Below, one piece after another: positions 1,375 through 25,820 of a stretch of 36,318 nucleotides of DNA. The stretch is taken from positions 2,272,498 to 2,308,815 of the forward strand of contig NZ_LT732526.1 of NCBI RefSeq assembly GCF_900155545.1. Direction: 5' to 3'. The first letter of the stretch is position 1. Every line of letters starts with the position of its first letter. This DNA is from Clostridium sp. Marseille-P2415. GTDB lineage: Bacteria; Bacillota; Clostridia; Lachnospirales; Lachnospiraceae. The notes under the pieces were generated by a model. That model was not told the DNA's origin. It searched no databases and saw only the letters and a list, made by a program, of their open reading frames with translations. The translations under genes were made by a program, and so were the position numbers.

Positions 1375-2580
1375 ATGAAACCAATTGAATGGGTTGTAAA
1401 CACCATGCCAAAGACCGATGATAAGAACTTGCCGGTCATGGCCCTGGATGAAATCAGGAAAGCGAGAAGCTTTCACGAAAGCTTCCCGCAGTACAGCAGG
1501 ACTCCCCTTGCAAAACTGGATCACATGGCAGATCATCTGGGCCTTGGCCAGGTTTATGTGAAAGACGAATCTTACCGGTTCGGCTTAAATGCCTTTAAGG
1601 TGCTGGGCGGTTCCTTTGCGATCGCAAAGTATATCGCAAAACAGATCGGCAGGGATGTATCAGAGCTTCCTTACAGCGTCCTCACTTCTGACGCTTTAAG
1701 AGAAGAATTCGGCCAGGCCACCTTCTTTACGGCTACCGACGGCAACCACGGACGCGGCGTTGCATGGGCTGCGGGCAAATTAGGCCAGAAGGCAGTCGTC
1801 TACATGCCCAAGGGTTCTACCATGACCCGTTTTCATAACATCAGGGCCGAAGGCGCAGATGTTACCATTGAAGAAGTCAACTATGACGAATGCGTCCGCA
1901 TGGCGGCCGATGCTGCTTCCAAAACAAAGAACGGCGTGGTCGTGCAGGATACCGCCTGGGATGGTTACGAAGAGATTCCTGCCTGGATCATGCAGGGCTA
2001 CGGAACCATGGCAATGGAGGCAGATGAACAGCTGGAAGAATACGGCTGTGACAGACCAACTCATGTATTCATTCAGGCAGGCGTCGGTTCCCTTGCCGGA
2101 GCCGTCCAGGGTTACTTCGCTAACCGCTACCCGGAAAATCCGCCTAAGGTGGTGGTCGTGGAAGCCGATGTTGCTGCCTGCCTCTATAAGGGAGCCAAAG
2201 CCGGCGACGGGAAAATCCGCATCGTGGACGGCGATATGCAGACCATTATGGCCGGCCTTGCCTGCGGCGAGCCAAACACCATTTCCTGGGATATCTTAAA
2301 GAACCACGCGGATGCTTTTGTCTCCGCTCCTGACTGGGCGGCTGCCCTGGGCATGAGAATGCTTGCAGCGCCTGTGAAGGGGGATACACCGGTCACTTCC
2401 GGTGAATCAGGCGCCGCTCCGTTCGGGGTTCTGGCCTGTATCATGAAGCTTGACGAATACAGGGAGTTAAGGGAGCATCTGGGACTTCATGAGGATTCAA
2501 AAGTTCTCCTCTTCTCTACAGAGGGCGATACCGACCCGGACCGTTACAAAGCCATTGTCTGGGAAGGAAAAGAACGATAG
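1375..2580 (+). CDS. dpaL: Diaminopropionate ammonia-lyase (PLP enzyme)
   Basis: 401 residues, close to the 398 of E. coli YgeX. It converts 2,3-diaminopropionate to pyruvate and two ammonia. Family marks: KDESYRFGLNAFKVLGG with the PLP-binding lysine K75, FTATDGNHGRGVAWAAG with acidic residue D122, VVQDTAWDGYEEIPAWIMQGY with D192, GLACGEPN and STEGDTD near the C-terminus. An AAGGAG site lies 11 nt before ATG 1375. It is the first metabolic gene of the series dpaL-ygeY-ygeW-arcC-permease. In anaerobic purine degradation clusters this enzyme is thought to process a diaminopropionate-like ring-opening product to pyruvate; that role is from knowledge of the cluster, not from this sequence. Confidence 0.93.
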   Translation: MKPIEWVVNTMPKTDDKNLPVMALDEIRKARSFHESFPQYSRTPLAKLDHMADHLGLGQVYVKDESYRFGLNAFKVLGGSFAIAKYIAKQIGRDVSELPYSVLTSDALREEFGQATFFTATDGNHGRGVAWAAGKLGQKAVVYMPKGSTMTRFHNIRAEGADVTIEEVNYDECVRMAADAASKTKNGVVVQDTAWDGYEEIPAWIMQGYGTMAMEADEQLEEYGCDRPTHVFIQAGVGSLAGAVQGYFANRYPENPPKVVVVEADVAACLYKGAKAGDGKIRIVDGDMQTIMAGLACGEPNTISWDILKNHADAFVSAPDWAAALGMRMLAAPVKGDTPVTSGESGAAPFGVLACIMKLDEYRELREHLGLHEDSKVLLFSTEGDTDPDRYKAIVWEGKER

Positions 2581-2613
2581 GCAAAATTTTCTTAGTGAAG
2601 ACAAACATTAGCC

Positions 2614-2640
2614 GTTCGATGAGCCAAAGGCCAATTGAAC
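2614..2640 (+). other. Intercistronic hairpin dpaL-ygeY
   Basis: GTTCGAT (2614-2620) pairs with ATTGAAC (2634-2640), and GCC (2623-2625) with GGC (2629-2631) across a 2x2 internal loop and an AAA loop. No T-run follows, so it is not a terminator. It may be an mRNA processing or stability element. Confidence 0.25.
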
Positions 2641-2677
2641 TTCATAAAAAATAAATGATAAACCGGAGGATAGAAAC

Positions 2678-3988
2678 ATGGATTACAGCAAAATCAAAGA
2701 AGCAGCAAAAAACTATGAAGCTGACATGACAAGGTTTTTACGGGACATCGTTAAGTTCCCGGGCGAAAGCTGTGACGAAAAAGCCCACATCGACCGCATT
2801 GCGGAAGAAATGAGAAAGCTTCAGTTCGACAAAGTGGAGATCGACCCAATGGGCAACGTTTTAGGCTACATGGGAACCGGCAGGACCTTAATCGGCTTTG
2901 ACGCCCACATCGACACCGTAGGGATCGGAAATAAGAGCAACTGGAACTTTGATCCATACGAAGGCTATGAGAATGATACGGAAATCGGCGGCCGCGGCGT
3001 ATCCGATCAGTGCGGCGGCATCGTATCAGCCGTTTACGGAGCAAAAATCATAAAGGATTTAGGCCTTTTAAATGACAAATATACCGTACTTGTTACCGGT
3101 ACCGTTCAGGAAGAGGACTGTGACGGACTCTGTTGGCAGTACATCATCAAGGAAGATAAGGTCCGCCCGGAATTCGTTGTTTCCACCGAACCGACCGACG
3201 GCGGCATCTACCGCGGGCAGAGAGGCCGTATGGAGATCCGCATCGACGTGAAAGGCATCTCCTGCCACGGCTCTGCACCGGAGCGCGGCGACAATGCTAT
3301 TTACAAGATGGCTGACATCCTTCAGGATGTGCGCGCTCTCAATGAGAATGACACAGCCGGTGACAAGGAAATAAAAGGCCTTGTGAAAATGCTTGATGAA
3401 AAATACAATCCGGAATGGAAGGAGGCCAACTTCTTAGGCCGCGGTACCGTTACGGTATCTGAGATTTTCTTTACCTCACCAAGCCGCTGTGCAGTCGCCG
3501 ACTCCTGCGCCGTATCCTTAGACCGCCGCATGACAGCAGGCGAGACATGGGAAAGCTGCCTGGAAGAGATCCGTAACCTTCCGAACGTGAAAAAATACGG
3601 GGATGACGTGACTGTTTCCATGTATGAATATTCCCGTCCTTCCTACAAAGGACTTACTTATCCGATCGAATGCTACTTCCCGACCTGGGTCATTCCGGAA
3701 GATCATGCCGTTACCAGGGCATTGGAAGAAGCCTATAAAAATCTATACGGCGATGCAAGGATCGGCGCAGAGGATACACTTAAGATGAGGACCACCCGCC
3801 CTCTTACCGACAAGTGGACCTTCTCCACCAACGGCGTTTCCATCATGGGACGTAACGGAATTCCATGCATCGGCTTCGGACCCGGCGCAGAGGCTCAGGC
3901 CCATGCTCCAAACGAGAAGACATGGAAACAGGATCTGGTGACCTGCGCAGCCGTATACGCCGCACTTCCTGCCGCTTACTGCAAATAA
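2678..3988 (+). CDS. ygeY: YgeY family selenium-metabolism-linked M20 hydrolase
   Basis: 436 residues, an M20/ArgE-DapE type zinc peptidase or amidohydrolase. Visible metal ligands and catalytic residues: FDAHIDTVG (H77, D79), [11 protein letters not shown] (D110), TVQEEDCDG (E145, E146), STEPTDGG (E171) and a late [14 protein letters not shown] histidine. [12 protein letters not shown] belongs to the lid/dimerisation domain. GGAGG lies 8 nt before the ATG. Members of this subfamily occur almost only in clusters with YgeW, DpaL, SsnA and selenium-dependent molybdenum hydroxylases, and are presumed to cleave an amide or carbamoyl intermediate of purine breakdown. The substrate is unproven. Confidence 0.9.
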
Positions 3989-4121
3989 ATATAATATCCG
4001 CCACCCCTAACAATCATTTTTGCTGTCCGCCCCTCATTCCTTCCCCGGATTAATGCCCGGCAGACGGCACGAAGGATAGATATCAACATAACACAAAGAA
4101 AATCAGGAGGCTTACCACAAC

Positions 4122-5315
4122 ATGAAAACCTTACAGGATTATATCGACAAATTGAATTCCTTAAACTTCAAGGAAATGTATGAAAATGATTTCTTCTTAA
4201 CCTGGGAGAAGACAGACGATGAGCTGGAAGCTGTCTGGACCGTCGCTGACGCTCTCCGTTTCATGAGAGAAAACAACATCTCCACAAAAGTATTTGAAAG
4301 CGGCCTTGGAATCTCCTTATTCCGGGATAATTCCACCCGCACCCGTTTCTCCTTTGCTTCTGCCTGCAACTTACTTGGCCTGGAAGTCCAGGATTTAGAC
4401 GAAGGCAAATCCCAGGTAGCTCACGGCGAGACCGTACGGGAAACAGCCAACATGATTTCCTTCATGGCAGATGTGATCGGCATCCGGGATGATATGTACA
4501 TCGGCAAGGGCAATGCTTACATGCACGAAGTTGCAGATGCTGTCACTCAGGGCCACAAAGACGGCATTTTGGAGCAGAAACCAACCCTGGTGAACTTACA
4601 GTGCGACATCGACCATCCAACCCAGAGCATGGCCGATATGCTGCACATCATCCATGAGTTCGGCGGCCTCGGAAACTTAAAGGGCAAAAAGCTGGCTATG
4701 ACATGGGCTTACTCTCCTTCCTACGGAAAGCCATTATCCGTTCCTCAGGGCGTGATCGGCTTAATGACACGTATGGGCATGGAAGTTGTTTTAGCTCATC
4801 CGGAAGGTTATGAGGTTATGCCGGAAGTGATCGAAGCAGCAAAGAAGAATGCGGAAAAATCCGGCGGTTCCTTCCGCGTATCCAACGATATGGCAGATGC
4901 ATTCAAAGACGCTGATATCGTATATCCAAAGAGCTGGGCACCATTCGCAGCCATGGAAAAGAGAACCGATCTTTACGGCGAAGGCGATACGGAGGGCATC
5001 CGGGCGCTCGAAAAGGAATTGCTGGCTCAGAACGCACAGCACAAGGACTGGTGCTGTACCGAAGAATTAATGAAGGCGACCAAAGACGGCAAAGCGCTTT
5101 ATCTGCACTGCCTGCCGGCTGACATCAACGATGTAAGCTGCGCAGACGGTGAAGTAGAAGCTTCCGTATTCGACCGCTACCGTAATCCGCTATACAAAGA
5201 AGCCAGCTACAAGCCTTATGTGATCGCTGCCATGATCTTCTTAAGCAAATTTGAGAAACCGCAGGAGATCTTAAAGAAGCTGGAAGCCAGAAAGACACCA
5301 AGAATTTTTAAATAA
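4122..5315 (+). CDS. ygeW: YgeW knotted carbamoyltransferase
   Basis: 397 residues, with the aspartate/ornithine carbamoyltransferase fold. The carbamoyl-phosphate-binding motif S-T-R-T-R is at 71-75 (FRDNSTRTRFSF) and HCLPAD begins at residue 329. The length and the segment SQVAHGETVRETANMISFMADVIGIRDD are typical of YgeW, the knotted class whose amino-acceptor substrate is unknown. Next to carbamate kinase, the likely direction is phosphorolysis of a ureido compound to carbamoyl phosphate, which the kinase uses to make ATP. GGAGG lies 11 nt before the ATG. The gap to ygeY (133 nt) holds no clear terminator. Confidence 0.92.
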   Translation: MKTLQDYIDKLNSLNFKEMYENDFFLTWEKTDDELEAVWTVADALRFMRENNISTKVFESGLGISLFRDNSTRTRFSFASACNLLGLEVQDLDEGKSQVAHGETVRETANMISFMADVIGIRDDMYIGKGNAYMHEVADAVTQGHKDGILEQKPTLVNLQCDIDHPTQSMADMLHIIHEFGGLGNLKGKKLAMTWAYSPSYGKPLSVPQGVIGLMTRMGMEVVLAHPEGYEVMPEVIEAAKKNAEKSGGSFRVSNDMADAFKDADIVYPKSWAPFAAMEKRTDLYGEGDTEGIRALEKELLAQNAQHKDWCCTEELMKATKDGKALYLHCLPADINDVSCADGEVEASVFDRYRNPLYKEASYKPYVIAAMIFLSKFEKPQEILKKLEARKTPRIFK

Positions 5316-5404
5316 TTCTATGCCAGGGGGCGCACCTGCAGCCAGCTGGGCGGATACAGGTGTACTTATAACAAAACTGTTTCATCATTGAGGGGTTAAC
5401 ACAA

Positions 5405-6349
5405 ATGGATAAGAAAAAAAGAATCGTTATTGCATTAGGCGGCAATGCTTTGGGCAACACTTTACCAGAGCAGATGACCGCAGTTAAGATCACATCGAAA
5501 GCAATTGTTGATTTGATCGAAGAGGGCTGCGAGGTTGTGGTAGTTCACGGCAACGGCCCCCAGGTCGGCATGATCAACAATGCCATGAGCGCTTTGAGCC
5601 GGGAAGATCCGAACCAGCCAAACACACCTCTCTCCGTCTGCGTAGCCATGAGCCAGGCTTACATCGGCTATGATCTGCAAAATGCTCTGAGAGAAGAACT
5701 GGTAAACAGAGGGCTGATAAATATTCCGGTAACCACCATGATCACCCAAATCCGCGTGGATGAAAATGATCCCGCTTTTAAAAAACCTTCCAAACCCATC
5801 GGCCACTTCATGACTGAGGAGCAGGCTAAGGAAGCAGCTTTCAAATATGGATATGTGACAAAAGAAGACGCAGGACGGGGTTACCGCCGTGTGGTGGCCT
5901 CCCCAAAGCCCGCAGAGATCATTGAGATCGGCGCGATCCGTTCCCTGGTGGAATCCGGACAATTAGTCATCGCCTGCGGCGGCGGCGGCATCCCGGTCAC
6001 CCTTAAGGGGAACCATTTAAAGGGTGCCAGCGCAGTCATTGATAAAGATTTTGCAAGTGAACTGCTTGCTGAGGAACTGGATGCGGATTTCTTAATCATC
6101 CTCACAGCAGTCGAAAAAGCAGCAATAAACTTCGGTAAACCGGAAGAGAAATGGTTGGACGATATTACAACAGACGAAGCCCGCAAGTACATGGAAGACG
6201 GACATTTTGCTCCTGGCTCCATGCTGCCGAAGGTCCAGGCTGCCGTGAAATTCGCAGATTCCAAGAAGGGGCGGCGCGCGCTCATCACTTTGCTGGAAAA
6301 AGCAAAAGAGGGAATCCTGGGAAATACCGGAACTCACATTCATCAGTAA
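5405..6349 (+). CDS. arcC: Carbamate kinase
   Basis: 314 residues, the usual family length. It transfers phosphate from carbamoyl phosphate to ADP, giving ATP, CO2 and ammonia. Motifs: IALGGNAL at the N-terminus, VVHGNGPQVG, KEDAGRGYRRVVASPKP, IACGGGGIPV, and a C-terminal FAPGSMLPKVQAA segment. It follows ygeW by 89 nt with its own GAGGGG ribosome-binding site. Coupled to YgeW it would be the energy-yielding step of the pathway. This copy corresponds to YqeA/ArcC of purine and arginine clusters; no arginine deiminase gene is present here, which favours the purine role. Confidence 0.93.
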   Translation: MDKKKRIVIALGGNALGNTLPEQMTAVKITSKAIVDLIEEGCEVVVVHGNGPQVGMINNAMSALSREDPNQPNTPLSVCVAMSQAYIGYDLQNALREELVNRGLINIPVTTMITQIRVDENDPAFKKPSKPIGHFMTEEQAKEAAFKYGYVTKEDAGRGYRRVVASPKPAEIIEIGAIRSLVESGQLVIACGGGGIPVTLKGNHLKGASAVIDKDFASELLAEELDADFLIILTAVEKAAINFGKPEEKWLDDITTDEARKYMEDGHFAPGSMLPKVQAAVKFADSKKGRRALITLLEKAKEGILGNTGTHIHQ

Positions 6350-6376
6350 ACCTTTCCTAAAGGAGGAACTTTTACA

Positions 6377-7711
6377 ATGAGACAGTCAAAGAAACAATAC
6401 GCTTCTATTTTTGAACTCAACGGCATCCCAAAATTTTCACAGACATTTCCGCTGGCGGTCCAGCACCTGGTAGCCATGATCGTGGGCTGTGTCACTCCCC
6501 CTATTATCGTTGCAAATATCGTCGGTCTGGAAGCAGCGGACCGGGTCATCCTGATCCAGGCCGCTCTGGTCGTGTCCGCATTATCCACCCTGCTTCAGCT
6601 TTTCCCCCTGGGCAAAAAGGACGGGTTCCGCATTGGCTCTGCTCTTCCCGTCATCCTGGGCATCAGCTTTGCCTATGTTCCCAGCATGCAGGCCATTGCC
6701 GCGGATTATGGAATACCGGCTATATTAGGCGCTCAGATCGCAGGCGGCGTCATAGCGTTTCTTGTAGGCATCTGTGTCATGCGCATCCGCAAATTTTTCC
6801 CGCCGCTCATAACAGGAACGGTTGTATTCACCATTGGACTCTCCCTCTACCCTACAGCCATTAACTATATGGCAGGAGGAGCTTCCAATCCTGCCTATGG
6901 TTCCTGGCAGAACTGGACCGTGGCGTTCATCACTCTGGCCGTTGTAACCATTTTAAATCATTTCGGAAAAGGCATTTTCAAACTGGCTTCCATTTTGATC
7001 GGAATTATTGTCGGTTATATCATCGCACTGTTCTTCGGCATGGTAGACTTCGCCAATATCGGAACTGCCGCCATTTTCCAGATCCCCCGGCCGTTTCACT
7101 TCGGCATTGTATTTGAACCGTCATCCTGCATTGCCATCGGCCTCTTATTCGCAATTAACTCTGTTCAGGCAATCGGAGACTTTACGGCAACCACCAGCGG
7201 TTCCATTGACCGGGAACCAACCGATAAGGAGCTTCAGGGAGGCATCATGGGCTACGGCATCACCAATATTTTAGGTGCCATGCTGGGAGGCCTTCCGACC
7301 GCGACCTACAGCCAGAACGTGGGGATCGTAACCACGACTAAGGTCGTTAACCGCTGTGTTATGGGGCTGACCGCAGTCTTTTTGCTGGCTGCCGGTTTCA
7401 TCCCCAAGTTCTCCGCTCTGCTTACCACCATTCCCCAATGCGTTCTGGGCGGTGCCACTGTATCGGTATTTGCCTCCATCGCCATGACCGGGATGAAGCT
7501 GGTAACATCAGAAGAGATGAACTATCGGAATTCTTCCATTGTAGGTCTTGCCGCTGCTCTTGGCATGGGAATTTCCCAGGCAACTGCTGCCCTTCAGTCT
7601 TTCCCGGCCTGGGTTGTTACCATCTTCGGACGTTCTCCGGTGGTTGTGGCAACCATTGTGGCAATCTTCTTAAATATCATTCTTCCGAAAGAAAGCAAAA
7701 AGAATAAATAA
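6377..7711 (+). CDS. NCS2 uracil/xanthine-type purine permease
   Basis: 444 residues with about 12-14 hydrophobic segments. NCS2 marks: the QH pair in TM1 (FPLAVQHLVAMIVG), a TM8 acidic segment (QAIGDFTATTSGS), and the signature SQNVGIVTTTKVVNR in TM9. The sequence is of the xanthine/uric acid:H+ symporter group (UacT/XanQ/PbuX-like) rather than the AzgA group found at 19211. It starts 27 nt after arcC with GGAGG and is the last gene before the terminator at 7713. Xanthine or urate uptake is the expected role given the neighbouring catabolic enzymes; exact specificity cannot be decided by eye. Confidence 0.85.
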   Translation: MRQSKKQYASIFELNGIPKFSQTFPLAVQHLVAMIVGCVTPPIIVANIVGLEAADRVILIQAALVVSALSTLLQLFPLGKKDGFRIGSALPVILGISFAYVPSMQAIAADYGIPAILGAQIAGGVIAFLVGICVMRIRKFFPPLITGTVVFTIGLSLYPTAINYMAGGASNPAYGSWQNWTVAFITLAVVTILNHFGKGIFKLASILIGIIVGYIIALFFGMVDFANIGTAAIFQIPRPFHFGIVFEPSSCIAIGLLFAINSVQAIGDFTATTSGSIDREPTDKELQGGIMGYGITNILGAMLGGLPTATYSQNVGIVTTTKVVNRCVMGLTAVFLLAAGFIPKFSALLTTIPQCVLGGATVSVFASIAMTGMKLVTSEEMNYRNSSIVGLAAALGMGISQATAALQSFPAWVVTIFGRSPVVVATIVAIFLNIILPKESKKNK

Positions 7712-15357: not shown

Positions 15358-15852
15358 TTATGCTTGCTCTTTTCCTACGGCCTTGTAGGTCTCTTCCACG
15401 ATTCTCTCCATGGCATTTAAGATGTTCTCATACCCCGTACATCTGCATAAATGTCCGGATATCATCTTTCTTAGTTCCTCTCTGTTATAACGCTTTCCGG
15501 TTCCCACGATCTCCACGGCTGTCATGATCAGGCCCGGCGTACAGAATCCGCATTGAACGGCTGCTTCCTCCACAAATGCTTTCTGAACCGGGTCAAGCTC
15601 GCCATTCGGCCCTTTTAAGCCTTCCACGGTCATGATCCTCCGGCCTTCGGCCCACACCGTTAAATAGATGCAGCTGTCAATGGCCTCCCCATCCACAAGC
15701 ACCGTACAGGCTCCGCATTCTCCCACTTCACAGCCTTTTTTTACGCTGGTAAGGCCCAGACGGTTTCTTAACGTCTCAAGCAGGGATTCCCTTTCGTCAA
15801 CAGCGGTTTCTACTTTCTTATCATTGACAATCATCTGAACAATCTTAAGCAT
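15358..15852 (-). CDS. xdhC: Xanthine dehydrogenase, [2Fe-2S] subunit
   Basis: 164 residues from ATG 15852, chosen because AGGAGG lies 8 nt upstream inside the end of xdhB; the longer start at 15870 has no ribosome-binding site. Two iron-sulfur clusters: the plant-type ferredoxin set C41, C46, C49, C61 (GCEVGECGACTVL...DSC) and the second set C101, C104, C136, C138 (QCGFCTPG...HLCRCTGYENI). It passes electrons from the molybdenum centre to FAD. The start overlaps the xdhB stop by 8 nt, so translation is probably coupled. No clear terminator follows. Confidence 0.94.
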   Translation of the reverse strand: MLKIVQMIVNDKKVETAVDERESLLETLRNRLGLTSVKKGCEVGECGACTVLVDGEAIDSCIYLTVWAEGRRIMTVEGLKGPNGELDPVQKAFVEEAAVQCGFCTPGLIMTAVEIVGTGKRYNREELRKMISGHLCRCTGYENILNAMERIVEETYKAVGKEQA

Positions 15853-16732
15853 TCCATTCACCTCCTGCATGGATGACCGCCTGTTTTAAGGCACGCTTTC
15901 CAAGCTCCTCAACCAGCTGCAGGCGGAATTCCTTAGACGCTCTCCAGCTGGAACGGGGATTTACCTCTTTTAATGCGTTCTCACCTACCGTTTGGATCAG
16001 ATCAGCTCCCAGCTTCATTCCTTTTACCCGGTTCTCGGTTTCAAAGCAGCGGACCGGAGTCGGTGCGGCAACGCCATAAGCCAGGCGCATATCCTCAATA
16101 TGCTTTTTATCCCCGCTCAGCTTCACGGTGACCGCACATCCTAAGGCAGCGATCTCCATGGCATTCCTCTTGCCGTATTTGATATAATGGCCGCCGTATC
16201 CCTCATAGGATTCCTTTTTGATCTGAATGGCCGTTAATACCTCATCGTGCTGCCTTACGGTCTTTCCCGGTCCCGTATACCAGTCCCGGATGGGGATTTC
16301 CCTGACCCCCTCCGGTCCTTCCACCGCTAAAACGGCATCCAGGCAGCAAAGAGAGGGGGCGCTGTCCGCACTGGTCACGCCGTTGCAGACATTTCCTCCC
16401 ACGGTACCGATGTTTCGCAGCTGAGGCCCGCCGGCCTGGTCCACGGCCTCCCCAAGGATGGGAATGTATTTCTGAATGATCTTATTGTTGGTTATGTGGG
16501 AAAATGTAGCAGCCGGGCCGATGACAATGCTTCCATCCTCCTTTAAATCCACTCCTTCCAATTCCCGGAGGCCATGAATGCTGACCAGAGAACATCCTGC
16601 CAGCTTTCCTTCCCTGATTTTAATCAGTACGTCGCTCCCGCCGGAGATTATGACAGCTGACCGGTCCTCTTTCAGGGCTCGGATGGCATCTTTTACATCT
16701 GCTGCCTGATAGAATTTTTCAATATCATACAT
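15845..16732 (-). CDS. xdhB: Xanthine dehydrogenase, FAD-binding subunit
   Basis: 295 residues, CoxM/XdhB family. FAD-binding marks: VIISGGSDVLIKIREGKL, IGPAATFSHI, and RNIGTVGGNVCNGVTSADSAPSLCCLDA. The C-terminal half is the CO dehydrogenase flavoprotein C-terminal domain (MRLAYGVAAPTPVRC). It accepts electrons from the iron-sulfur subunit and passes them to NAD or another acceptor. It follows xdhA by 18 nt with a GGGGTGG ribosome-binding site and overlaps xdhC. Confidence 0.94.
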   Translation of the reverse strand: MYDIEKFYQAADVKDAIRALKEDRSAVIISGGSDVLIKIREGKLAGCSLVSIHGLRELEGVDLKEDGSIVIGPAATFSHITNNKIIQKYIPILGEAVDQAGGPQLRNIGTVGGNVCNGVTSADSAPSLCCLDAVLAVEGPEGVREIPIRDWYTGPGKTVRQHDEVLTAIQIKKESYEGYGGHYIKYGKRNAMEIAALGCAVTVKLSGDKKHIEDMRLAYGVAAPTPVRCFETENRVKGMKLGADLIQTVGENALKEVNPRSSWRASKEFRLQLVEELGKRALKQAVIHAGGEWNA

Positions 16733-16750: not shown

Positions 16751-19039
16751 CTATATTAGTCCTGCTTCTTTAAACTTCTCCACCAGCTTCTGTGGATCAA
16801 GAGGCAGACTGTCTACTGCTACACCCGTTGCATGAAGCACCGCATTGCGGACAGCCGGAGCCACAGGAATGGCCGGCGGCTCCCCAAGGGCCTTATTTCC
16901 AAACGGTCCTGTGGGATCTTCCAGTTCAACAAACCGGACATGAAGGTCCGGCGTATCCATGGACGTAGGAAGCTTGTAATCCAGCAGGTTATCATTCAAA
17001 GGCCTGCCGTTTTTATCAAATAACAATTCCTCGCTGAGCGCGTATCCAAGTCCCATGCTCATTCCTCCGTGCACCTGGGCCTCTGCCAGCTTTGGATTGA
17101 TGAGAATTCCGCTGTCATGGACATTGATGATGTTGGTCACCTTAACCCTGCCAAGGGGCATATCCACCTCTACCTCAGCAAAGCAGACACCGGTTGCAAT
17201 GGTGTTTTCCTTGCAATGGCTGGTGGCCTCTGCCGTAATATGAACGGAACGGTCCAGGCTGTAGAAGGCGTTGGTAGCAAGATCTGCCATATCCATAAGC
17301 TTCTCTCCGCTTTCTTTGTCAACGACCACGTTATTTTCAATGTCCATGGAAGCAGTTTCCCGGTCCAGCATATAGCTTACATATTCCAGGATCCTTTCTT
17401 TCATAAGATGGCCGCAGTTCTTCACGGCTTTTCCGCTGACATAGGTTTGTCTGGAAGCATAAGCGCCGGTATCAAAGGGGGTAATGTCCGTATCCTGGGT
17501 GGAAACGATATGGACCTTATCCTCCGATATTCCAGTAACCTCCGCTGCCATCTGTATGAATACGGTATCCGCGCCCTGTCCGATCTCCGTAGCGCCCATC
17601 TGAAGCTGCATGGAACCATCCTGGTTTAATATCATGCGGCAAGCGGCCGTCTCCAGGGAAATCGGATAAACTCCTGTCTTATAGCTGAAGATAGCCATAC
17701 CCACGCCTTTCCGGATGGGTCCGGCCTGATTCTCATATTCTTTTCTTTTCTCATCCCAGTGAATGAATTCCCGGCCCTTCTGAATGCATTCCTTTAGGCC
17801 ATATGTATGGCAGGTAATATGGGTGTGGGGATCCACATACCCTTCCTGCATACAGTTTTTTAAACGGAATTCCAGAGGGTCCATAGAAAGGGCCATGGAT
17901 AAATCATCGGCCATACATTCCGACGCAAAAGCCGCCTGGGGGATTCCATAGCCTCTCATGGCTCCGCCCGAAGACAAGTTGGTATAAACCGTATAGGCAT
18001 CCGACTGCAGGGTCTTTTCGTCGTGATAGATCTGTTTAAATTCATTGACCGTATTGGCAACAATGGAGTGCCCATGGGATGCGTAGCCTCCCTGGTTGGA
18101 AAATGCCTCCAGCCTTCTGGCTACCAGGGTCCCGTCTTTTCGCACAGCCGCCTTTACATGCATTTTAATGGCATGGCGGACTCTGGTATGGGCCAGGGTC
18201 TCTTCTCTTGAGATCTCCATGCGCACGCCTCTTCCTCCGGCCTGGGTACAGAGATAGGCGTTAAGCGGTTCATAAAGGACCTCCTGCTTGTTGCCAAAGC
18301 CTCCGCCGATATAGGGCTTGATCACCCGGATATCTCCCACCGGAATGCCCAAAGCCTGGCTGATGACACGGCGGACGATATGGGGGATCTGGGTGGAGGT
18401 GGTGACAACGATCCTCCCTTTTTCCATATAGGCAAAGGAAATGGGCGTCTCTATGTGGCAGTGCTGCACGCACTGGGTATCGTATACCCGGTCGATCTCC
18501 AGAATATCTTCGCCTTTTATGGCAGCTTCATAAGGCATATCGCCTACAGTAAAGTTGGAATGTGCGATCAAATTGCCCGGTCTCTCTTCGTGAAGGACCG
18601 AAGCGCCTTTAGCAAGCGCAGCCTCTGCCGTAAGAAGCGGCTCATACTCCTCATATTCCACCTTTACAAGACGGGCGGCCCGGTTCGCTGCGATCTCATC
18701 TTCTGCAATGACCGCCGCAATATCATCTCCATAGGTCCGCACCCTGGTATTAAGGAGCTTTCTGTCCGCAATGTCCTGATGGGCTTTTTCCACGGACCAG
18801 GGATGCCCGGCAGTGGGAAACTGCAAGTCCGGTACATCAAAGCAGGTCACGATTTTTACAACTCCGGCCACCTTTAAGGCATCTTCCAAGTCAAAGCGCT
18901 TCACCACCCCATTTGCAATGGTGCTTCTTACGACCTTTGCGACAAGAAATCCCCGGGGTTCCAGATCTGCGGTGTATTTAGCGCCGCCGGTTACTTTTTC
19001 ACTTGCGTCAACGCGAGTCATGTTTTTGCCAATTCCCAT
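16751..19039 (-). CDS. xdhA: Xanthine dehydrogenase, molybdenum-binding subunit
   Basis: 762 residues, near the 752 of E. coli XdhA. Motifs of the xanthine oxidase family: KVTGGAKYTADLEPRG at the start, YIGGGFGNKQEVLYEP, SGGAMRGYGIPQAAFASE, QMGATEIGQGADTVF, and the catalytic glutamate E720 in KALGEPPAIPVAPAV. It hydroxylates hypoxanthine or xanthine, or may act in reverse on urate. The nearby selD, desulfurase and DUF3343 genes suggest it is a selenium-dependent molybdenum hydroxylase carrying labile selenium; the sequence alone cannot prove that. AGGAGG lies 9 nt before the ATG, and a 171-nt leader separates it from the permease gene. Confidence 0.93.
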   Translation of the reverse strand: MGIGKNMTRVDASEKVTGGAKYTADLEPRGFLVAKVVRSTIANGVVKRFDLEDALKVAGVVKIVTCFDVPDLQFPTAGHPWSVEKAHQDIADRKLLNTRVRTYGDDIAAVIAEDEIAANRAARLVKVEYEEYEPLLTAEAALAKGASVLHEERPGNLIAHSNFTVGDMPYEAAIKGEDILEIDRVYDTQCVQHCHIETPISFAYMEKGRIVVTTSTQIPHIVRRVISQALGIPVGDIRVIKPYIGGGFGNKQEVLYEPLNAYLCTQAGGRGVRMEISREETLAHTRVRHAIKMHVKAAVRKDGTLVARRLEAFSNQGGYASHGHSIVANTVNEFKQIYHDEKTLQSDAYTVYTNLSSGGAMRGYGIPQAAFASECMADDLSMALSMDPLEFRLKNCMQEGYVDPHTHITCHTYGLKECIQKGREFIHWDEKRKEYENQAGPIRKGVGMAIFSYKTGVYPISLETAACRMILNQDGSMQLQMGATEIGQGADTVFIQMAAEVTGISEDKVHIVSTQDTDITPFDTGAYASRQTYVSGKAVKNCGHLMKERILEYVSYMLDRETASMDIENNVVVDKESGEKLMDMADLATNAFYSLDRSVHITAEATSHCKENTIATGVCFAEVEVDMPLGRVKVTNIINVHDSGILINPKLAEAQVHGGMSMGLGYALSEELLFDKNGRPLNDNLLDYKLPTSMDTPDLHVRFVELEDPTGPFGNKALGEPPAIPVAPAVRNAVLHATGVAVDSLPLDPQKLVEKFKEAGLI

Positions 19040-19210: not shown

Positions 19211-20605
19211 TTATATTAATATATATTTTAGTACAAACAATACCGCCAGAACATACATGAGCGTACTGATTTTCTTCTCTTTTGCCTTACCGGTAACCAG
19301 GTTGATAAATACATAAGAAATCACGCCCATGGCGATCCCTTCGGAAATGCTGTACATAAACGGCATGGCAATAATCGCGATATAGCTTGGAATGGCCTCT
19401 GTGAAATCTGAAAAATCAATCTTGGTAACAGAGGTCATCATCAAAAAGCCTACCACCACCAGAGCGGGAGCCGTGGCAAAGGACGGAATCGCTAAGAAAA
19501 TCGGGGATAAAAACAGGGATAATCCAAACAACACGGCTGCGACCACTGCGGTCAGACCGGTTCTCCCCCCTTCTGCAACGCCGGCCGCACTCTCTACGAA
19601 TGTAGTGGTAGTGGAAGTACCGAAAATTGCGCCTACGGATGTACCGACCGCATCGGACAATAATGCGCCTCTGATCTGAGGAAGCTTTCCGTCTTTATCC
19701 AGCATGTCGGCCTTGGAAGCCACGCCGATCAGTGTTCCCAGGGTATCAAACATATCGACAAACAGGAACGCAAACATCACAACCAGGAAATCCAGGGAAA
19801 GGATCCTGGAGAAATCCAGCTTAAAAAAGGTGGGGGCCATGCTGGGAACTCCAAATCCTGATGAAAAATCAGGGAAAACACTCAACATGCCCAGTTCCGG
19901 ATTTGGCTGGTATAAACCGAACGCCTGGCAGATCATCCCAAGGACCCAGGTTGCCAGAATTCCCCATAAAATATTCCCCTTAACGTTTTTAACAACCAAC
20001 ACCGCCGTAATCAGGATGCCGATGACCGCTAATAAAACGGTAATTCCGACGGTATGGAACGTTCCATCCGCCAAAGAGCCCTTGAACGAATAAACCGTAA
20101 CCAGAGTTGCTCCATCTACAACGACCTTTGCATTCTGAAGTCCGATAAATGCGATAAACAGTCCGATTCCGACGGATACGGCATGCTTTAAATTCATAGG
20201 GATCGCATTGAAAATCGCCTCGCGGACACTGGTCAGTGAAAGAAGGATAAAAATAAGACCTTCTATGAATACCGCTGCCAGAGCCATCTCCCAGGTATAA
20301 CCCATATTAAGAACTACCGTATACGCAAAATATGCGTTGAGCCCCATTCCCGGCGCAAGCACAAACGGATAGTTGGCAAGCCCTGCCATCAAAAGAGTCG
20401 CAACCAGTGATGCCAGAGCCGTGGCAGTAAATACCGCTCCGCTGTCCATTCCCGCTGCGCTTAAGACGCTGGGGTTGACCGCCAGAATATATGCCATGGT
20501 CATAAACGTGGTAATGCCGGCTACAATCTCGGTCCTGGCATCTGTGTGGTTCTTGGATAAGTGAAATACCCTTTCCAAAAATCCGTCACTTTTTTTTGTT
20601 TCCAT
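19211..20605 (-). CDS. AzgA/PbuG-type purine (guanine/hypoxanthine) permease
   Basis: 464 residues with about 12-13 membrane helices. AzgA-branch signatures: TEIVAGITTFMTMAYIL, FVLAPGMGLNAYFAYT, DMFDTLGTLIGVASKADM, and GTSTTTTFVESAAGVAEGGRTG. These permeases import guanine, hypoxanthine or adenine by proton symport. It lies between guaD (78 nt) and xdhA on the minus strand with AAGGAGG 8 nt before the ATG, so uptake is co-transcribed with guanine deamination and xanthine oxidation. Confidence 0.92.
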   Translation of the reverse strand: METKKSDGFLERVFHLSKNHTDARTEIVAGITTFMTMAYILAVNPSVLSAAGMDSGAVFTATALASLVATLLMAGLANYPFVLAPGMGLNAYFAYTVVLNMGYTWEMALAAVFIEGLIFILLSLTSVREAIFNAIPMNLKHAVSVGIGLFIAFIGLQNAKVVVDGATLVTVYSFKGSLADGTFHTVGITVLLAVIGILITAVLVVKNVKGNILWGILATWVLGMICQAFGLYQPNPELGMLSVFPDFSSGFGVPSMAPTFFKLDFSRILSLDFLVVMFAFLFVDMFDTLGTLIGVASKADMLDKDGKLPQIRGALLSDAVGTSVGAIFGTSTTTTFVESAAGVAEGGRTGLTAVVAAVLFGLSLFLSPIFLAIPSFATAPALVVVGFLMMTSVTKIDFSDFTEAIPSYIAIIAMPFMYSISEGIAMGVISYVFINLVTGKAKEKKISTLMYVLAVLFVLKYILI

Positions 20606-20683: not shown

Positions 20684-21964
20684 CTAAAATATCCTTTTCC
20701 CTTCTGCATATTTCCCTCTGATGTGCCTGTCATCGGACAGGTATATGAAACGTTCCAGCCGTTCCCGCAATGTGAGCGGCTGCGGATGACGCAGACTGCT
20801 GTCATCCAGAATCAGAGCATCAAAGTCATAGCCTTCCAGAAAGCTTCCAACCTTTCCAAAGAACGAACCACCGCCAATGGTTCCCAGATAGAATGCCTCT
20901 TCTGCAGTAAGCGGCTTTAAGCTGTCATCCTGAAGCCTCCACCTTAGTTTGGATACGGAAATGGCATCTGCCATAGCACGGAATATGGACTCCCCGCTTC
21001 CTCCTGCCACATCAGTTCCAAGCCCCACGTTCATCCCCCGGTCCAGATAAGTCCTGACCGGAGCGATCCCGGAGGATAAGTTGGTATTCGACTGAGGACA
21101 GTGAGCAATATAAACTCCACGCTCTTTGATTAACGCGATTTCCGGTTCGGCCGAAGAAACGCAATGAGCCATAACAGTCCTTCCGTTTCCCCCAAACAGG
21201 CCGAACCGGTCATAAGCATCTCCATAGAATCCGGAATCCGGACAGAGCTCCTTTACCCATTCAATCTCACTCTGATTTTCCGACAAATGGGACTGCACCG
21301 GAAGTCCATACTTCTTCTGCAATTCTCCCAGCCGCTCCATCAGCTCATCCGTACAGGACGGAATGAACCTTGGGGTCAGTATGGGCTTCACATTCCCGTA
21401 CTTGAAACGCGTCTCCTCCAGCCAGCTAACCGTATCCCGAACCGACTGTTCTGCACTTAATTCACATAAGTATTCCGGGGAATTCCGGTCCATATTGACC
21501 TTGCCGATCATGGTCTTCAAACCGGTTTCCTCCATCAGATCCATTAAAAGCTCTGTGGCCGGTTTGTGGATGGTGGCAAAAATACAGGCCCTTGTGGTAG
21601 CGCTTCTCTTCATGGCATCCGCAAAAATCTGGTAGGCCTTCCTTGCATATTCCAGATCGCCGTACCTGGCTTCCTCTGGAAACGTATTCGTATTCAGCCA
21701 GTCCAAAAGCTCTAAATCCATCCCAAGACCGCGAAATGAAAATTGCGGCGCATGAATATGAAGATCGATGAGCCCCGGAATGATGAGCATATCCCCGCAG
21801 TCCTCAAGCGGATAATCCGCAAACTGCTCCGGGATTTCCCTATAAACCCCCGCCGACTTTCCATTCTGGCATATTAAAAAACCCTGTTCCACCGTCTTTA
21901 ACGTGTGGACATCCTCACTGTAGCATATGTTCCCTTTTAAAATGAATTTTTTATCACTGGTCAT
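20684..21964 (-). CDS. guaD: Guanine deaminase
   Basis: 426 residues from ATG 21964, which has AGGAGG 4 nt upstream; longer in-frame versions run into the riboswitch leader and are rejected. Amidohydrolase zinc ligands: PGLIDLHIHAPQ (H69, H71), PVQSHLSENQSEIEWVK, MAHCV and LGTDVAGGSGES. The HIHAPQFSFRGLG and DWLNTNTFPEE segments are typical of guanine deaminases. It makes xanthine and ammonia from guanine. It is the first gene of the riboswitch-controlled operon guaD-permease-xdhABC. Activity on 8-oxoguanine or other guanine analogues cannot be excluded. Confidence 0.9.
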   Translation of the reverse strand: MTSDKKFILKGNICYSEDVHTLKTVEQGFLICQNGKSAGVYREIPEQFADYPLEDCGDMLIIPGLIDLHIHAPQFSFRGLGMDLELLDWLNTNTFPEEARYGDLEYARKAYQIFADAMKRSATTRACIFATIHKPATELLMDLMEETGLKTMIGKVNMDRNSPEYLCELSAEQSVRDTVSWLEETRFKYGNVKPILTPRFIPSCTDELMERLGELQKKYGLPVQSHLSENQSEIEWVKELCPDSGFYGDAYDRFGLFGGNGRTVMAHCVSSAEPEIALIKERGVYIAHCPQSNTNLSSGIAPVRTYLDRGMNVGLGTDVAGGSGESIFRAMADAISVSKLRWRLQDDSLKPLTAEEAFYLGTIGGGSFFGKVGSFLEGYDFDALILDDSSLRHPQPLTLRERLERFIYLSDDRHIRGKYAEGKRIF

Positions 21965-22114
21965 AGAACCTCCTGTTCCGTATACAAAGAAAATACGGCA
22001 GTTAAATTGCAACGTTCCTAAAACCCTGAGCAATAAAAAACCACCGTTCCTTCTATCTCTCCACACGTGCACCATAAGAACACAGCAAAATAAAGCCGGG
22101 CTTACCGTCACGCG

Positions 22115-22183
22115 GAAACTTATAGACAACTATTACGGTAGTTGGTAGAAACACTCAACCAATTATGAGCATATATAAGTTTC
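22115..22183 (-). ncRNA. Purine (guanine-class) riboswitch aptamer, variant core
   Basis: On the minus strand a three-way junction can be drawn. P1 is GAAACTTATA (22183-22174) / TATAAGTTTC (22124-22115), 10 bp. P2 is GCTCA/TGAGT, with a loop ending in GG. J2-3 is the invariant GTTTCTACC, P3 is CAACTA/TAGTTG, and its loop is CCGTAA. The pyrimidine that reads the ligand (position 74 in xpt numbering) is C, so it belongs to the guanine rather than the adenine type; U51 is kept. Departures: J1-2 reads TAT instead of TAA, J3-1 reads TC instead of AC, and P2 and both loops are slightly short. It lies about 40 nt after the promoter and upstream of guaD. Confidence 0.85.
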
Positions 22184-22228: not shown

Positions 22229-22258
22229 ACTATATCATATTGTACAACTATTTGTCAA
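22229..22258 (-). promoter_or_regulatory. Promoter of the guaD-permease-xdhABC operon
   Basis: Minus strand TTGACA (22258-22253), 18-nt spacer, TATAGT (22234-22229) with an extended -10 TGA. The spacer contains the palindrome TTGTACAA, which could be a protein site. Transcription would start near 22222. Confidence 0.65.
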
Positions 22259-22703: not shown

Positions 22704-22724
22704 TTTATAGACAATGTCTATAAA
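22704..22724. promoter_or_regulatory. 21-bp perfect palindrome between LysR and DUF3343 genes
   Basis: Arms TTTATAGACA (22704-22713) and TGTCTATAAA (22715-22724) around a single base. The inner 15 bp fit ATAG-N7-CTAT and T-N11-A. It overlaps the LysR stop codon. No T-run follows on the minus strand, so a terminator is less likely than an operator for the DUF3343 gene. Confidence 0.5.
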
Positions 22725-23623
22725 TATGCATACAGTTCCCGGACAAATTGCAGGAACAGCCTGGCCGCTTTTCCGGGCTTATGGTTCTTGCTCCAAACCA
22801 TGTACAATTTCCGGTAAACATCATCCGCACTCAGAGAAAAACGCAGCAGAGAGCCCTGTTTTACGTAATCCTCTACGGCTGCACTGGATATAATGGAAAT
22901 GCCCATTGCCGCTCCCACCGATTTTTTAATGGTCTCCTGATTGTTAATGGTAGCCACGATCTCCAACCGGCTTAAGTCCAGCCCCATATCCTTTAGATGA
23001 CGTTCCGCTTCCTTTCTGGTACCGGAGCCTTCCTCCCTGACGATCCAGCGCTCTTCATAGAACCGTTCCAGAGGAAATCCGGTTTTCTCATACTGACGGT
23101 ACCGTTCGATATTTGGAGTAATGATCACCAGACGGTCAAGATAAAAGGGCTCAAATACGCAGGCCGGATCAGAACCCATGGTTCCCGTAAAGCCGATCTC
23201 CACCTGGCCTTCCTGTACCATCCGGACTACCTCCATGCTGTCTGCTTCCTTTAGCTCCAGCTGGTTTCCCGGATAGGTTCTGGTAAACAGGGAAAGGATC
23301 TGCGGCAGAATATACTGCCCCGGCACCGTTGAGGCACCTACAATGATCTTCTTTGCCGCTTTGCGGTCCTTCTGGGTAAAGTCCCGCAGGATATTTTTTT
23401 CCAACTGCAGCATTTTCCTGGCATTGTCGTAAAGCCGTTCTCCTTCCCCTGACAGCTCCACATCCTTTGTGGTGCGGATAAACAATCGGACTCCCAGTTC
23501 TTTTTCCAGCGAACCGATGTGGGCGCTTACCGTAGGCTGGGTCAGGTAAAGCTTTTTCGCAGCCGCTGAAAAGCTTTTTACTTCCGCTACACATACAAAC
23601 GCTTCCAATTGCTTCAAATTCAT
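22718..23623 (-). CDS. LysR-family regulator of the selenium cluster
   Basis: 301 residues. The N-terminal winged HTH, MNLKQLEAFVCVAEVKSFSAAAKKLYLTQPTVSAHI, is followed by the linker helix and a periplasmic-binding-like effector domain (KIIVGASTVPGQYILPQIL onwards). It matches the group annotated as selenium-metabolism-associated LysR regulators. Its ATG overlaps the desulfurase stop by 4 nt (ATGA), so the two are translationally coupled within selD-desulfurase-lysR. LysR proteins bind T-N11-A palindromes and often control their own operon; suitable sites are seen at 25837-25851 and 22707-22721. The inducer is unknown. Confidence 0.88.
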   Translation of the reverse strand: MNLKQLEAFVCVAEVKSFSAAAKKLYLTQPTVSAHIGSLEKELGVRLFIRTTKDVELSGEGERLYDNARKMLQLEKNILRDFTQKDRKAAKKIIVGASTVPGQYILPQILSLFTRTYPGNQLELKEADSMEVVRMVQEGQVEIGFTGTMGSDPACVFEPFYLDRLVIITPNIERYRQYEKTGFPLERFYEERWIVREEGSGTRKEAERHLKDMGLDLSRLEIVATINNQETIKKSVGAAMGISIISSAAVEDYVKQGSLLRFSLSADDVYRKLYMVWSKNHKPGKAARLFLQFVRELYAYL

Positions 23624-24762
23624 AGGCTCAGCTCCCTCACAGCATGGATGGCTTCGTCGATTTCCTTTTCTTCATTATAATGGGACATGGAAAAACGGAC
23701 AGCTCCCTGTTCTGCAGTTCCCAGCGCCTGATGCATGAGGGGCGCACAGTGAGCCCCTGCCCTGGTATAAATTTCATAATGAAAGGCCAGCTCGTCCGCC
23801 ACTTCCCCGGAATCGCAGTCCCGTATGTTAAGGGCCACGACCGGCGCACGGCAAAGAAGCTTTTCCTCTGAAAAATCCCCATACACACGGATCCCCGGAA
23901 TTTCCCTCACTCCCTCATAGAACCGTTTCATGAGCATGAGCTCTCTCTCCCGTATATTGTTGATGCCGGTTTTCCGAAGATACAATAATGCAGCATGAAG
24001 ACCGGCGATCCCATGGCTGTTTAAGGTACCCGCTTCCAAAGCCTCGGGCATCTCCTCCGGCTGGGTCCTTAAATAGCTGTGAACTCCGCTCCCTCCCACC
24101 ATCAGAGGCCTTATTAAAATCCCGTCCCGGACACAGATTCCTCCTGTTCCCTGAGGACCTAAAAGACCCTTGTGGCCGGTAAAGCACAGGACATCGATCC
24201 CCATCCGTTCCATGTCAATGTCAAACACTCCCGCGGTCTGGGATGCATCCACCAGGAATAAAATCCCATGTGCCCTGCAGATACGCCCGATGGCTTCCAG
24301 ATCATTCATATTCCCGGTTAAGTTGGAGGCATGGGTACAGACTACACCACGGGTATTTTTCCGGATTGCCGCTTCTAAATCCTCATACCGGATATTGCCC
24401 TTTTGATCCACAGGCAGGATGGTAAGCTCTACTCCCCGCTTTTCCATCAGGTACAGGGGGCGAAGTACGGAATTATGCTCCATCACGGTAGTAATCACAT
24501 GGTCTCCCGGGTCAAACGCGCCCTGAATGGCGGTATTTAAGCTCTCCGTCGAATTCGCCGTAAAGGCAACCCGGGCCGGATCTCCTGCATGGAAAAGCTC
24601 TGCCAACATCCTTCGGGTATCAAAAATCATCCGGGATGCATCCAGTGACGCCCCATGAGCCCCCCGGCCGGAATTCCCCAGTTGAAGCAATGCATCCGCC
24701 ACCGCCGCTCTTACTTCTTCCGGTTTCTGGTATGAGGTTGCCGCATTATCCAGATAAATCAT
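23620..24762 (-). CDS. Class V cysteine desulfurase/selenocysteine lyase-like enzyme
   Basis: 380 residues. It starts MIYLDNAATSYQKPEEV, the usual opening of NifS/CsdA-type PLP enzymes. PLP lysine K198 is in CFTGHKGLLGPQGTGG; the cofactor histidine and aspartate regions are MEHNSVLRP and LVDASQTAGV; the catalytic cysteine is C339 in YTRAGAHCAPLMH. It removes sulfur or selenium from cysteine or selenocysteine. Located 5 nt after selD and coupled to the LysR gene, it probably provides selenium for SelD or directly for the molybdenum hydroxylase. Confidence 0.9.
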   Translation of the reverse strand: MIYLDNAATSYQKPEEVRAAVADALLQLGNSGRGAHGASLDASRMIFDTRRMLAELFHAGDPARVAFTANSTESLNTAIQGAFDPGDHVITTVMEHNSVLRPLYLMEKRGVELTILPVDQKGNIRYEDLEAAIRKNTRGVVCTHASNLTGNMNDLEAIGRICRAHGILFLVDASQTAGVFDIDMERMGIDVLCFTGHKGLLGPQGTGGICVRDGILIRPLMVGGSGVHSYLRTQPEEMPEALEAGTLNSHGIAGLHAALLYLRKTGINNIRERELMLMKRFYEGVREIPGIRVYGDFSEEKLLCRAPVVALNIRDCDSGEVADELAFHYEIYTRAGAHCAPLMHQALGTAEQGAVRFSMSHYNEEKEIDEAIHAVRELSL

Positions 24763-24767
24763 GGCTC

Positions 24768-25820
24768 TTACCTCAGCTTTACATATTTTTCTTCTTTTTC
24801 CACAACCCGTCCGATGATCCGGCAGGCTGTCTCCATTTTAACGGTCTCAAAGTCTTTCATGATCTGCTCTGCATCCCAAGGGGAAACGCTGACCAGGAGT
24901 CCTCCTGAAGTCTGGGGATCGCAGAAGATATCGCAGAGATACTCTTCCGTTTCTCCAAAGTCCACCTTATCCTCCGCAAAGGACCGGTTCCGGTAAGCCC
25001 CTTCCGGAATCAACCCCATTTGTGCAAGCTCTGGGGCCTCTTTCTGGATGGGCAGATCCTTTACAAAGATTTCCAGCGTTACACCGCTGCCCTCCGCCAT
25101 TTCCACCGAATGGCCTGCCAGGCCGAAACCGGTGACATCGGTACAGCTATGGACACCGTAATGCTCCACCACCTGCTTGGCTTTCTTATTTAAAGATGTC
25201 ATGACACGGATCACTTCCTTTTTCGCCTCTTCGGAAGCCATATCCGCCTTGACCGCCGTATTGACGATCCCGGTTCCCAGAGGCTTGGTCAGAATCAGGA
25301 CATCTCCCGGCCTGGCTCCGCAGTTTTTAAAAACCTTATCCGGATGGACGAACCCGGTAACACTCAGCCCGTATTTCGGTTCATCATCCTGAATGGAATG
25401 ACCGCCTGCCAGCACGGCTCCCGCTTCCAGCACCTTGCACGCGCCGCCTTCCAGTATCTTTCCCAAAAATGCCGGATTCACGCAGTTTGGCCATGCCACG
25501 ATATTAAGAGCCACTTTCGGCTCCCCTCCCATGGCATAAATATCGCTCAGCGCATTGGCTGCCGCCACCTGGCCAAAGATGTAAGGATCATCCACCACCG
25601 GGGTAAAAAAATCCAGGGTCTGGATCAGGGCCAATTCATCGTTCACCCGGTAGATCGCTCCGTCATCGGAAGTTTCAATCCCCACCAGCAGATTGGGATC
25701 TTCAAATTTCGGCAGATTCTCTAAGATTCCGGCAAGGGTTCCAGGGCCGATCTTAGCGGCACAGCCGGCTGTTTTTGTCATCTGGGTAAGTCTCACTTCG
25801 CTATCCGGTACCATATCCAT
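24768..25820 (-). CDS. selD: Selenide, water dikinase (selenophosphate synthase)
   Basis: 350 residues. It makes selenophosphate from selenide and ATP. The N-terminal active site is GCAAKIGPG with C20 and K23, equivalent to C17 and K20 of E. coli; the active residue is an ordinary TGT cysteine, not selenocysteine. ATP-binding segments DDGAIYRVNDELALIQTLDFFTPVVDDPY and GHSIQDDEPKYGLSVTGFVH are present, as is DPQTSGGLLV near the end. AAGGAG precedes the ATG (25820; the ATG at 25814 is an alternative). No selA, selB or selenocysteine tRNA is in the window, so it may serve only the labile-selenium pathway. Confidence 0.95.
   Translation of the reverse strand: MDMVPDSEVRLTQMTKTAGCAAKIGPGTLAGILENLPKFEDPNLLVGIETSDDGAIYRVNDELALIQTLDFFTPVVDDPYIFGQVAAANALSDIYAMGGEPKVALNIVAWPNCVNPAFLGKILEGGACKVLEAGAVLAGGHSIQDDEPKYGLSVTGFVHPDKVFKNCGARPGDVLILTKPLGTGIVNTAVKADMASEEAKKEVIRVMTSLNKKAKQVVEHYGVHSCTDVTGFGLAGHSVEMAEGSGVTLEIFVKDLPIQKEAPELAQMGLIPEGAYRNRSFAEDKVDFGETEEYLCDIFCDPQTSGGLLVSVSPWDAEQIMKDFETVKMETACRIIGRVVEKEEKYVKLR

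Follow-up and report, generated by a model that had tools for sequence, protein, structure and literature searches.

The guaD-permease-xdhABC operon of Clostridium sp. Marseille-P2415 is preceded by a guanine-class aptamer, and its most likely reading, one we regard as probable, is that of a transcriptional ON switch. The aptamer is complementary to a short leader segment beside a U-tract (helix T1), this pairing is conserved beside the U-tract in related leaders, and an unusual base at aptamer residue 73 is linked to the same architecture. We infer that guanine is sensed and that its binding prevents termination. The window, i.e. the whole stretch of DNA that was analyzed, is 36,318 nucleotides long, and coordinates refer to it unless a locus is named.

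Aptamer and operon

RF00167 (Purine) is the sole Rfam family matching the window at its gathering score (22198-22103, minus strand; 51.9 bits against a gathering score of 37; E 3.7e-6). A preliminary description of this DNA had placed a guanine-class aptamer at 22115-22183, with no strand given, and the match bears this out. The CCGTAA loop, C74, short L2 and L3 and 10-bp P1 that it listed were all found again, and the two unusual junctions, J1-2 TAT (position 24) and J3-1 TC (position 73), lie where it had located them. Residues were numbered by hand on the RF00167 alignment. The elements of the aptamer are as follows.

22115 to 22183, minus strand: purine (guanine-class) aptamer, P1 to P1 (RF00167)
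22183-22174 / 22124-22115, minus strand: P1 (10 bp)
22173-22171, minus strand: J1-2, UAU
22170-22153, minus strand: P2/L2
22152-22144, minus strand: core GUUUCUACC
22144-22127, minus strand: P3/L3, with the 6-nt loop CCGUAA
22126-22125, minus strand: J3-1, UC

Contact bases U22, U47, U51 and C74 are all retained in the RF00167 alignment, U47 being one that we take to contact the ligand. The other three are named as ligand-contact bases in PMC9295807. The L2-L3 kissing sequences are kept in the two short loops (UUGG in L2, CCGU in L3; predicted contact of GG with CC). Judged from its sequence, the aptamer is guanine-class (guanine-I-like).

An aptamer of this type with U24 and either U73 or C73 is present in 24/24 same-genus genomes. 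The genome studied here (5.25 Mb) contains only two purine aptamers, and the second, before a FAD-dependent oxidoreductase gene, has A24/A73 and the same compact loops. U73 is rare among purine aptamers of a phylum sample: across its 398 genomes, 91 matches in 64 genomes (counted by hand from the list) were obtained for the core pattern with the ending ACTA, and 2 matches in 2 genomes, one being this genome, for the pattern with the ending TCTA (U73).

The aptamer ends 150 nt upstream of guaD, the first gene of the operon. Gene profiles support the earlier assignment of the downstream genes to a purine-catabolic operon of guaD, a permease and xdhABC.

22229 to 22258, minus strand: promoter-like site TTGACA-18-TATAGT, TG before the second hexamer (11/12 consensus matches)
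21969 to 21974, minus strand: Shine-Dalgarno sequence AGGAGG of guaD
20684 to 21964, minus strand: guaD, guanine deaminase family (TIGR02967, 364.9 bits, just under the cut-off of 375.4)
19211 to 20605, minus strand: purine permease (Pfam PF00860, Xan_ur_permease)
16751 to 19039, minus strand: xdhA, molybdenum-binding subunit (NF043082, 1240 bits)
15845 to 16732, minus strand: xdhB, FAD-binding subunit (NF043083, 434.6 bits)
15358 to 15870, minus strand: xdhC, iron-sulfur subunit (NF043084, 254.7 bits)

The promoter scan gave 4 sites in the scanned region, with a mean of 1.8 in shuffles. XdhA, XdhB and XdhC all score above their NCBIfam cut-offs. The identity of GuaD as an 8-oxoguanine deaminase was rejected on family scores, since it reaches 100.3 bits on that profile against a cut-off of 532. 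Its nearest relatives among solved structures, PDB 2i9u and 2uz9, are guanine deaminases.

Two other gene groups were noticed in the window. A row on the plus strand (1375-7711) encodes a PLP enzyme, an M20 peptidase, a carbamoyltransferase, an amino-acid/carbamate kinase-like protein and a second xanthine/uracil-type permease, and resembles an anaerobic purine-breakdown cluster. Beside the xdh operon, on the minus strand (22718-25820), lie genes for a selenium-associated-type LysR regulator, a class-V aminotransferase and an AIRS-domain protein, probably a selenophosphate synthase.

A predicted terminator built from the aptamer

A simple terminator scan found 0 ordinary terminators, in agreement with the earlier remark that no standard one is visible. 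A long-range terminator, however, is predicted from the aptamer itself, with the following parts.

22135 to 22143, minus strand: T1 5' arm AACUACCGU, the P3 5' strand plus L3
22124 to 22128, minus strand: aptamer residues 71-75, UGUCU, including U73 and C74 (predicted OFF-state partner 22058-22054, helix T2)
22061 to 22115, minus strand: predicted hairpin CCGCGUG...CACGUGUGG between aptamer and terminator arm, like P4 of pbuE
22039 to 22047, minus strand: T1 3' arm ACGGUGGUU (joined to the 5' arm by 9 pairs of mean probability 0.96)
22035 to 22040, minus strand: U6 tract directly after the T1 helix
21995 to 22001, minus strand: CUGCCGU, with which the T1 3' arm is predicted to pair once transcription has read through (full-leader folds)

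The T1 arms enclose a loop of 87 nt, and T2 is predicted in the window leader with pair probabilities of 0.64-0.69. The hairpin at 22115-22061 appears in free and in aptamer-constrained folds and is predicted to be present in both states. In the full-leader fold, the aptamer is restored and the freed T1 3' arm pairs downstream with CUGCCGU. Constraining the fold to retain the aptamer costs 5.2 kcal/mol in the window, 2.4-7.4 in same-genus loci (L042 excluded) and 1.5-17.9 over all loci, in calculations that omit tertiary contacts and ligand. The T1 structure of the window is most stable with U73 (-46.2 kcal/mol, vs -43.8 with C, -43.1 with G and -42.2 with A).

These predictions suggest the following course. 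Without ligand, the RNA made after the hairpin downstream of the aptamer would invade the aptamer. Pairing would begin at P1, J3-1 and the P3 3' strand (T2), where C74, the Watson-Crick partner of the ligand, would become buried, and would go on into L3 and the P3 5' strand (T1), so that a terminator would form just before U6 and transcription would stop. Bound ligand would lock the three-way junction, the invasion would fail, and guanine deaminase, permease and xanthine dehydrogenase would be made. An ON switch had been offered earlier as one option for a catabolic operon; it is the likely direction in the prediction, through ligand-blocked formation of T1. With a hairpin kept in both states and invasion through P1, J3-1 and P3, the predicted leader has the features needed for pbuE-like ON switching, and the terminator 5' arm would lie inside the aptamer with a U-tract following the terminator, as in that type.

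Conservation of the pairing in guaD leaders

A de-duplicated set of 42 guaD-type leaders was assembled from same-genus matches and from a scan requiring U73, among the matches listed, and by this design cannot give the frequency of U73. Seven of them (L042, L043, L047, L054, L059, L062, and L085) were assigned to guaD by hand. Most guaD leaders have in common the motif CGGURG beside the U-tract, complementary to the P3 5' strand and L3, while the surrounding sequence is divergent. Among the matches listed, the T1 arm occurs in 37/42 leaders (absent in L100, L104, L162, L173, and L203), and the best complement of P3/L3 abuts the U-tract in 34/42 when no U-run is required. Changes in both arms were also seen. 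L015 has both arms altered together (GGCUGCCGUA with UACGGCGGCC), and the arms of L145 covary, with one pair turned G-C.

The observed T1 score was reached by at most 7 of 1000 dinucleotide shuffles in 30/37 loci and by at most 25 in 34/37. The three remaining loci are L183 (67 shuffles) and two with mis-set arms, L015, where the shuffle used a wrong arm offset, and L042, which begins at a contig end and has invalid values in the pair-probability and shuffle runs but is read correctly in the search for the best complement. In folds of transcripts that stop at the U-tract, T1 has a mean pair probability of 0.88 or more in 36/40 leaders and of zero in four (L100, L104, L173, and the mis-set L042). 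A pairing probability of at least 0.5 in the predicted OFF state was obtained for residue 73 in 30/36 loci and for C74 in 35/36. The predicted partner is A or G for U73, U for the A73 of L015 and G for C73; C73 pairs with a probability of 0.97 in L029 and of 0.02-0.69 in the other C73 loci, i.e. weakly in several.

Three loci deserve separate mention. L203, on a contig labelled as a Planctomycetaceae MAG, carries a guaD-type aptamer and guaD, and this contig is possibly mis-binned. In L080 and L083, guaD is apparently interrupted, with only about 75% of it matched by the search as a single piece.

Residue 73 and the predicted terminator across Lachnospiraceae

To avoid the bias of a scan requiring U73, a family-wide sample was used. 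It comprised 299 Lachnospiraceae genomes, one per genus, of which 65 carry an aptamer. They contain 83 loci, of which 78 could be parsed and five (L213, L223, L225, L251, and L285) have no recognizable core. T1 is found in 36/78 loci: 15/29 before guaD, 10/17 before FAD-oxidoreductase, 2/8 before permease, 2/4 before xdh, 2/3 before MATE, 2/5 before lipoprotein-like, 3/9 before other and 0/3 before xpt genes. The labels xpt, MATE and lipoprotein come from the initial residues of each reading frame, and one MATE protein was checked. T1 occurs at 37/118 U-runs, vs 6.5 expected after leader shuffling. In an arm permutation over the 36 T1 loci, 0/2000 reached the observed score, which gives no independent support because these loci had been chosen for pairing.

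A base other than A at residue 73 (non-A73) tracks the T1 terminator more strongly than the gene, and the gene also matters, though less. Non-A73 occurs in 20/36 T1 loci vs 3/42 others (p=3.1e-6). With T1 called from sequence alone, the counts are 21/36 vs 2/42 (p=1.6e-7), and with two stricter thresholds 17/26 vs 6/52 and 17/25 vs 6/53. Residue 73 is doubtful in four of the 78 parsed loci (L216, L221, L267, and L275) because the base called 74 is not C; without them, the counts are 16/32 vs 3/42 (p=3.7e-5). The comparison of guaD with all other loci gave p=0.12 for non-A73, and 12/29 vs 7/45 (p=0.016) without the four doubtful loci. Within guaD loci, of which 17/29 have A73, non-A73 occurs in 10/15 with T1 and 2/14 without (p=0.008). 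All these p values are too small because the genera are not fully independent.

Two further candidate marks of the T1 architecture were rejected. Position 24 is A, G or U both with and without T1, and compact loops (P3+L3 of at most 18 nt) occur in 24/36 T1 loci vs 23/42 others (p=0.36).

Residue 73 is predicted to be paired in the terminator and non-A73 tracks T1, so the variant bases look like an adaptation of the expression platform. In this model, terminator pairing accounts best for the unusual base at 73.

Ligand

The preliminary description had instead proposed a switch of ligand to xanthine, urate, 8-oxoguanine or another oxidized purine, with bases 24 and 73 as the hallmark of the change. 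We consider this unlikely, although U73 is rare (2 vs 91 matches), the operon is catabolic and non-A73 has some link to guaD in the strictly parsed loci. There is also a precedent in C. difficile, where a specific response to xanthine is reported for one purine riboswitch (PMC11477304), so preferences within the class may shift. Specificity variants, however, are described as altering ligand-contact positions or adding junction insertions (PMC9295807), and the aptamer here does neither.

U24 together with U73 is also found upstream of xpt-like genes, in seven Enterococcus/Tetragenococcus loci among the matches listed (L108, L128, L142, L152, L158, L198, and L206), each with at least one leader-only hairpin before a U-run, i.e. 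an ordinary terminator. Their xpt-like name is our assumption from the first residues of the product, which begins like XPRTase. A73 is common before guaD, the score of GuaD places it outside the 8-oxoguanine deaminase family, and non-A73 goes with the terminator among guaD loci. Position 24 varies with or without T1, and non-A73 tracks the terminator more strongly than the gene. An A24U mutant of the xpt aptamer was crystallized with hypoxanthine (4FEJ, per PMC6649850), and its binding was slightly tighter in simulations (PMC6649850). Guanine is the likely ligand of the aptamer. We know of no close homologue of the aptamer that has been characterized at the bench.

Direction of control

A second alternative is an OFF switch in which T1 acts as an antiterminator and ligand frees the 3' arm for the downstream CUGCCGU hairpin, which would then terminate. 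Folding of the full leader predicts this hairpin, and in several leaders of the same genus it is followed by a U-run (L033, L035, L043, L049, L059, and others). In this window, the hairpin is followed by AUUUUCUUU, which contains no run of five U, and L045, L053, L066 and L079 have no U-tract at this place. T1 itself is followed by a U-tract, and no later independent U-run hairpin precedes the gene in 35/36 family T1 loci (exception L241). We therefore regard an OFF switch as improbable. That the U-tract pairing is incidental, with control by translation or another route, is very improbable: some guaD leaders are indeed short or lack a U-run (L162, L173; L226, L234, L266), but arm and U-tract persist across genera whose leaders otherwise differ, and the minimum-energy fold computed for the whole leader has no AGGAGG-aptamer pairing.

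Some findings count against the ON switch that we favor. T1 is absent in 14/29 family guaD loci, the loop closed by T1 is long, a second U-run follows the downstream hairpin in some leaders of the genus, C73 pairs weakly in several loci, and non-A73 is also linked to guaD. The 14 guaD loci without T1 comprise four with a terminator against P3-3'/P1, which is ON-compatible too, two with an independent hairpin, which is OFF-compatible, five that are unclear and three with no U-run.

Relation to known purine riboswitches

The aptamer fold and ligand-contact bases are the same as in guanine-I (xpt type, RF00167). The 6-nt L3, U24/U73 and the predicted terminator built from the aptamer itself are unlike guanine-I. 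Guanine-I relatives bind guanine, and hypoxanthine and xanthine about 10-fold more weakly; guanine-I riboswitches are described as commonly lowering expression (PMC9295807), and the four C. difficile guanine riboswitches are reported as OFF (PMC11477304).

The predicted ON strand exchange through P1, J3-1 and P3 beside a persistent hairpin resembles that of the pbuE adenine riboswitch. In the present leader, the predicted terminator base extends to L3 and the P3 5' strand, which the pbuE terminator presumably does not reach, and the aptamer has C74 where pbuE, an adenine riboswitch, has U74. The pbuE riboswitch of Bacillus subtilis is described as an ON switch working by strand exchange through P1, J3/1 and P3, which begins next to a hairpin that persists in both states (PMC7707468).

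Xanthine-II, guanine-II and 2'-dG-III have the same three-way scaffold but carry U51G, junction insertions or changed junctions, none of which occurs here. Xanthine-II combines U51G with J2-3 and J3-1 insertions, whereas the core here is GUUUCUACC and J3-1 has 2 nt; the one-nucleotide J2-3 insertion and the J3-1 insertion of guanine-II are likewise absent. An ON direction is predicted for all three variants, and xanthine-II lies upstream of genes for purine degradation (PMC9295807).

By its gene association, with a deaminase that matches guanine deaminase, the aptamer differs from the 8-oxoguanine riboswitch. The latter acts as an ON switch upstream of genes for 8-oxoguanine deaminase. It is described as a variant related to guanine-I (PMC9295807). 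A guanine riboswitch before a guanine deaminase gene was not found among the titles and abstract openings listed from openly licensed literature, which is weak evidence of absence, nor in the consulted parts of PMC7373994, PMC9430930 and PMC3519856. The unrelated NMT1 (xanthine-I) motif is reported near deaminase-like genes (PMC7373994).

Further purine aptamers

Several other purine aptamers were noticed. Nine same-genus genomes carry a further one with the core GTCTCGACC (U51G) and extra J3-1 bases, the xanthine-II pattern (L036, L039, L052, L065, L069, L072, L075, L078, and L082; near base 501 or its mirror). These precede a gene that begins like an xdh iron-sulfur subunit. L056 (4528-4628) and L267 have the core GTCTCTATC or GTTTCTATC and a changed J3-1, with L056 before a permease-like frame, and are possible further ligand variants. 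In L216, L221 and L275, T1-type aptamers have an apparent extra base in J3-1, and L275 precedes a MATE transporter gene. A FAD-dependent oxidoreductase of unclear role (Pfam FAD-depend_C) follows the aptamer in 17/78 family loci, 10 with T1, and also lies downstream of the aptamer of L001 (1501-1596). Among the matches listed, U73 aptamers occur in Bdellovibrio-labelled contigs (L095, L117, L125, L141, L164, and L170), where the next listed frame starts within about 15 nt of P1 and several frames begin like secreted proteins.

Implications

It seems fairly probable that, in Lachnospiraceae, guanine-I-type aptamers serve as guanine-induced ON switches of a purine-catabolic regulon comprising guaD, permeases, xdh, the FAD-dependent oxidoreductase and MATE transporters, with a terminator made from L3, P3 and J3-1. 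Residue 73 and C74 would then serve both pocket and terminator, so that drift at this pocket-adjacent base would report the expression platform and not a new ligand. If true, this weakens the rule of thumb by which variant riboswitch classes are found from base changes next to the pocket, and it would supply a case in which an unusual near-pocket base is explained by terminator pairing. The FAD-dependent oxidoreductase and the MATE transporter, whose roles are unclear, are named as possible members of a guanine response. A widespread ON version driving guanine breakdown would show the same aptamer re-wired by its platform.
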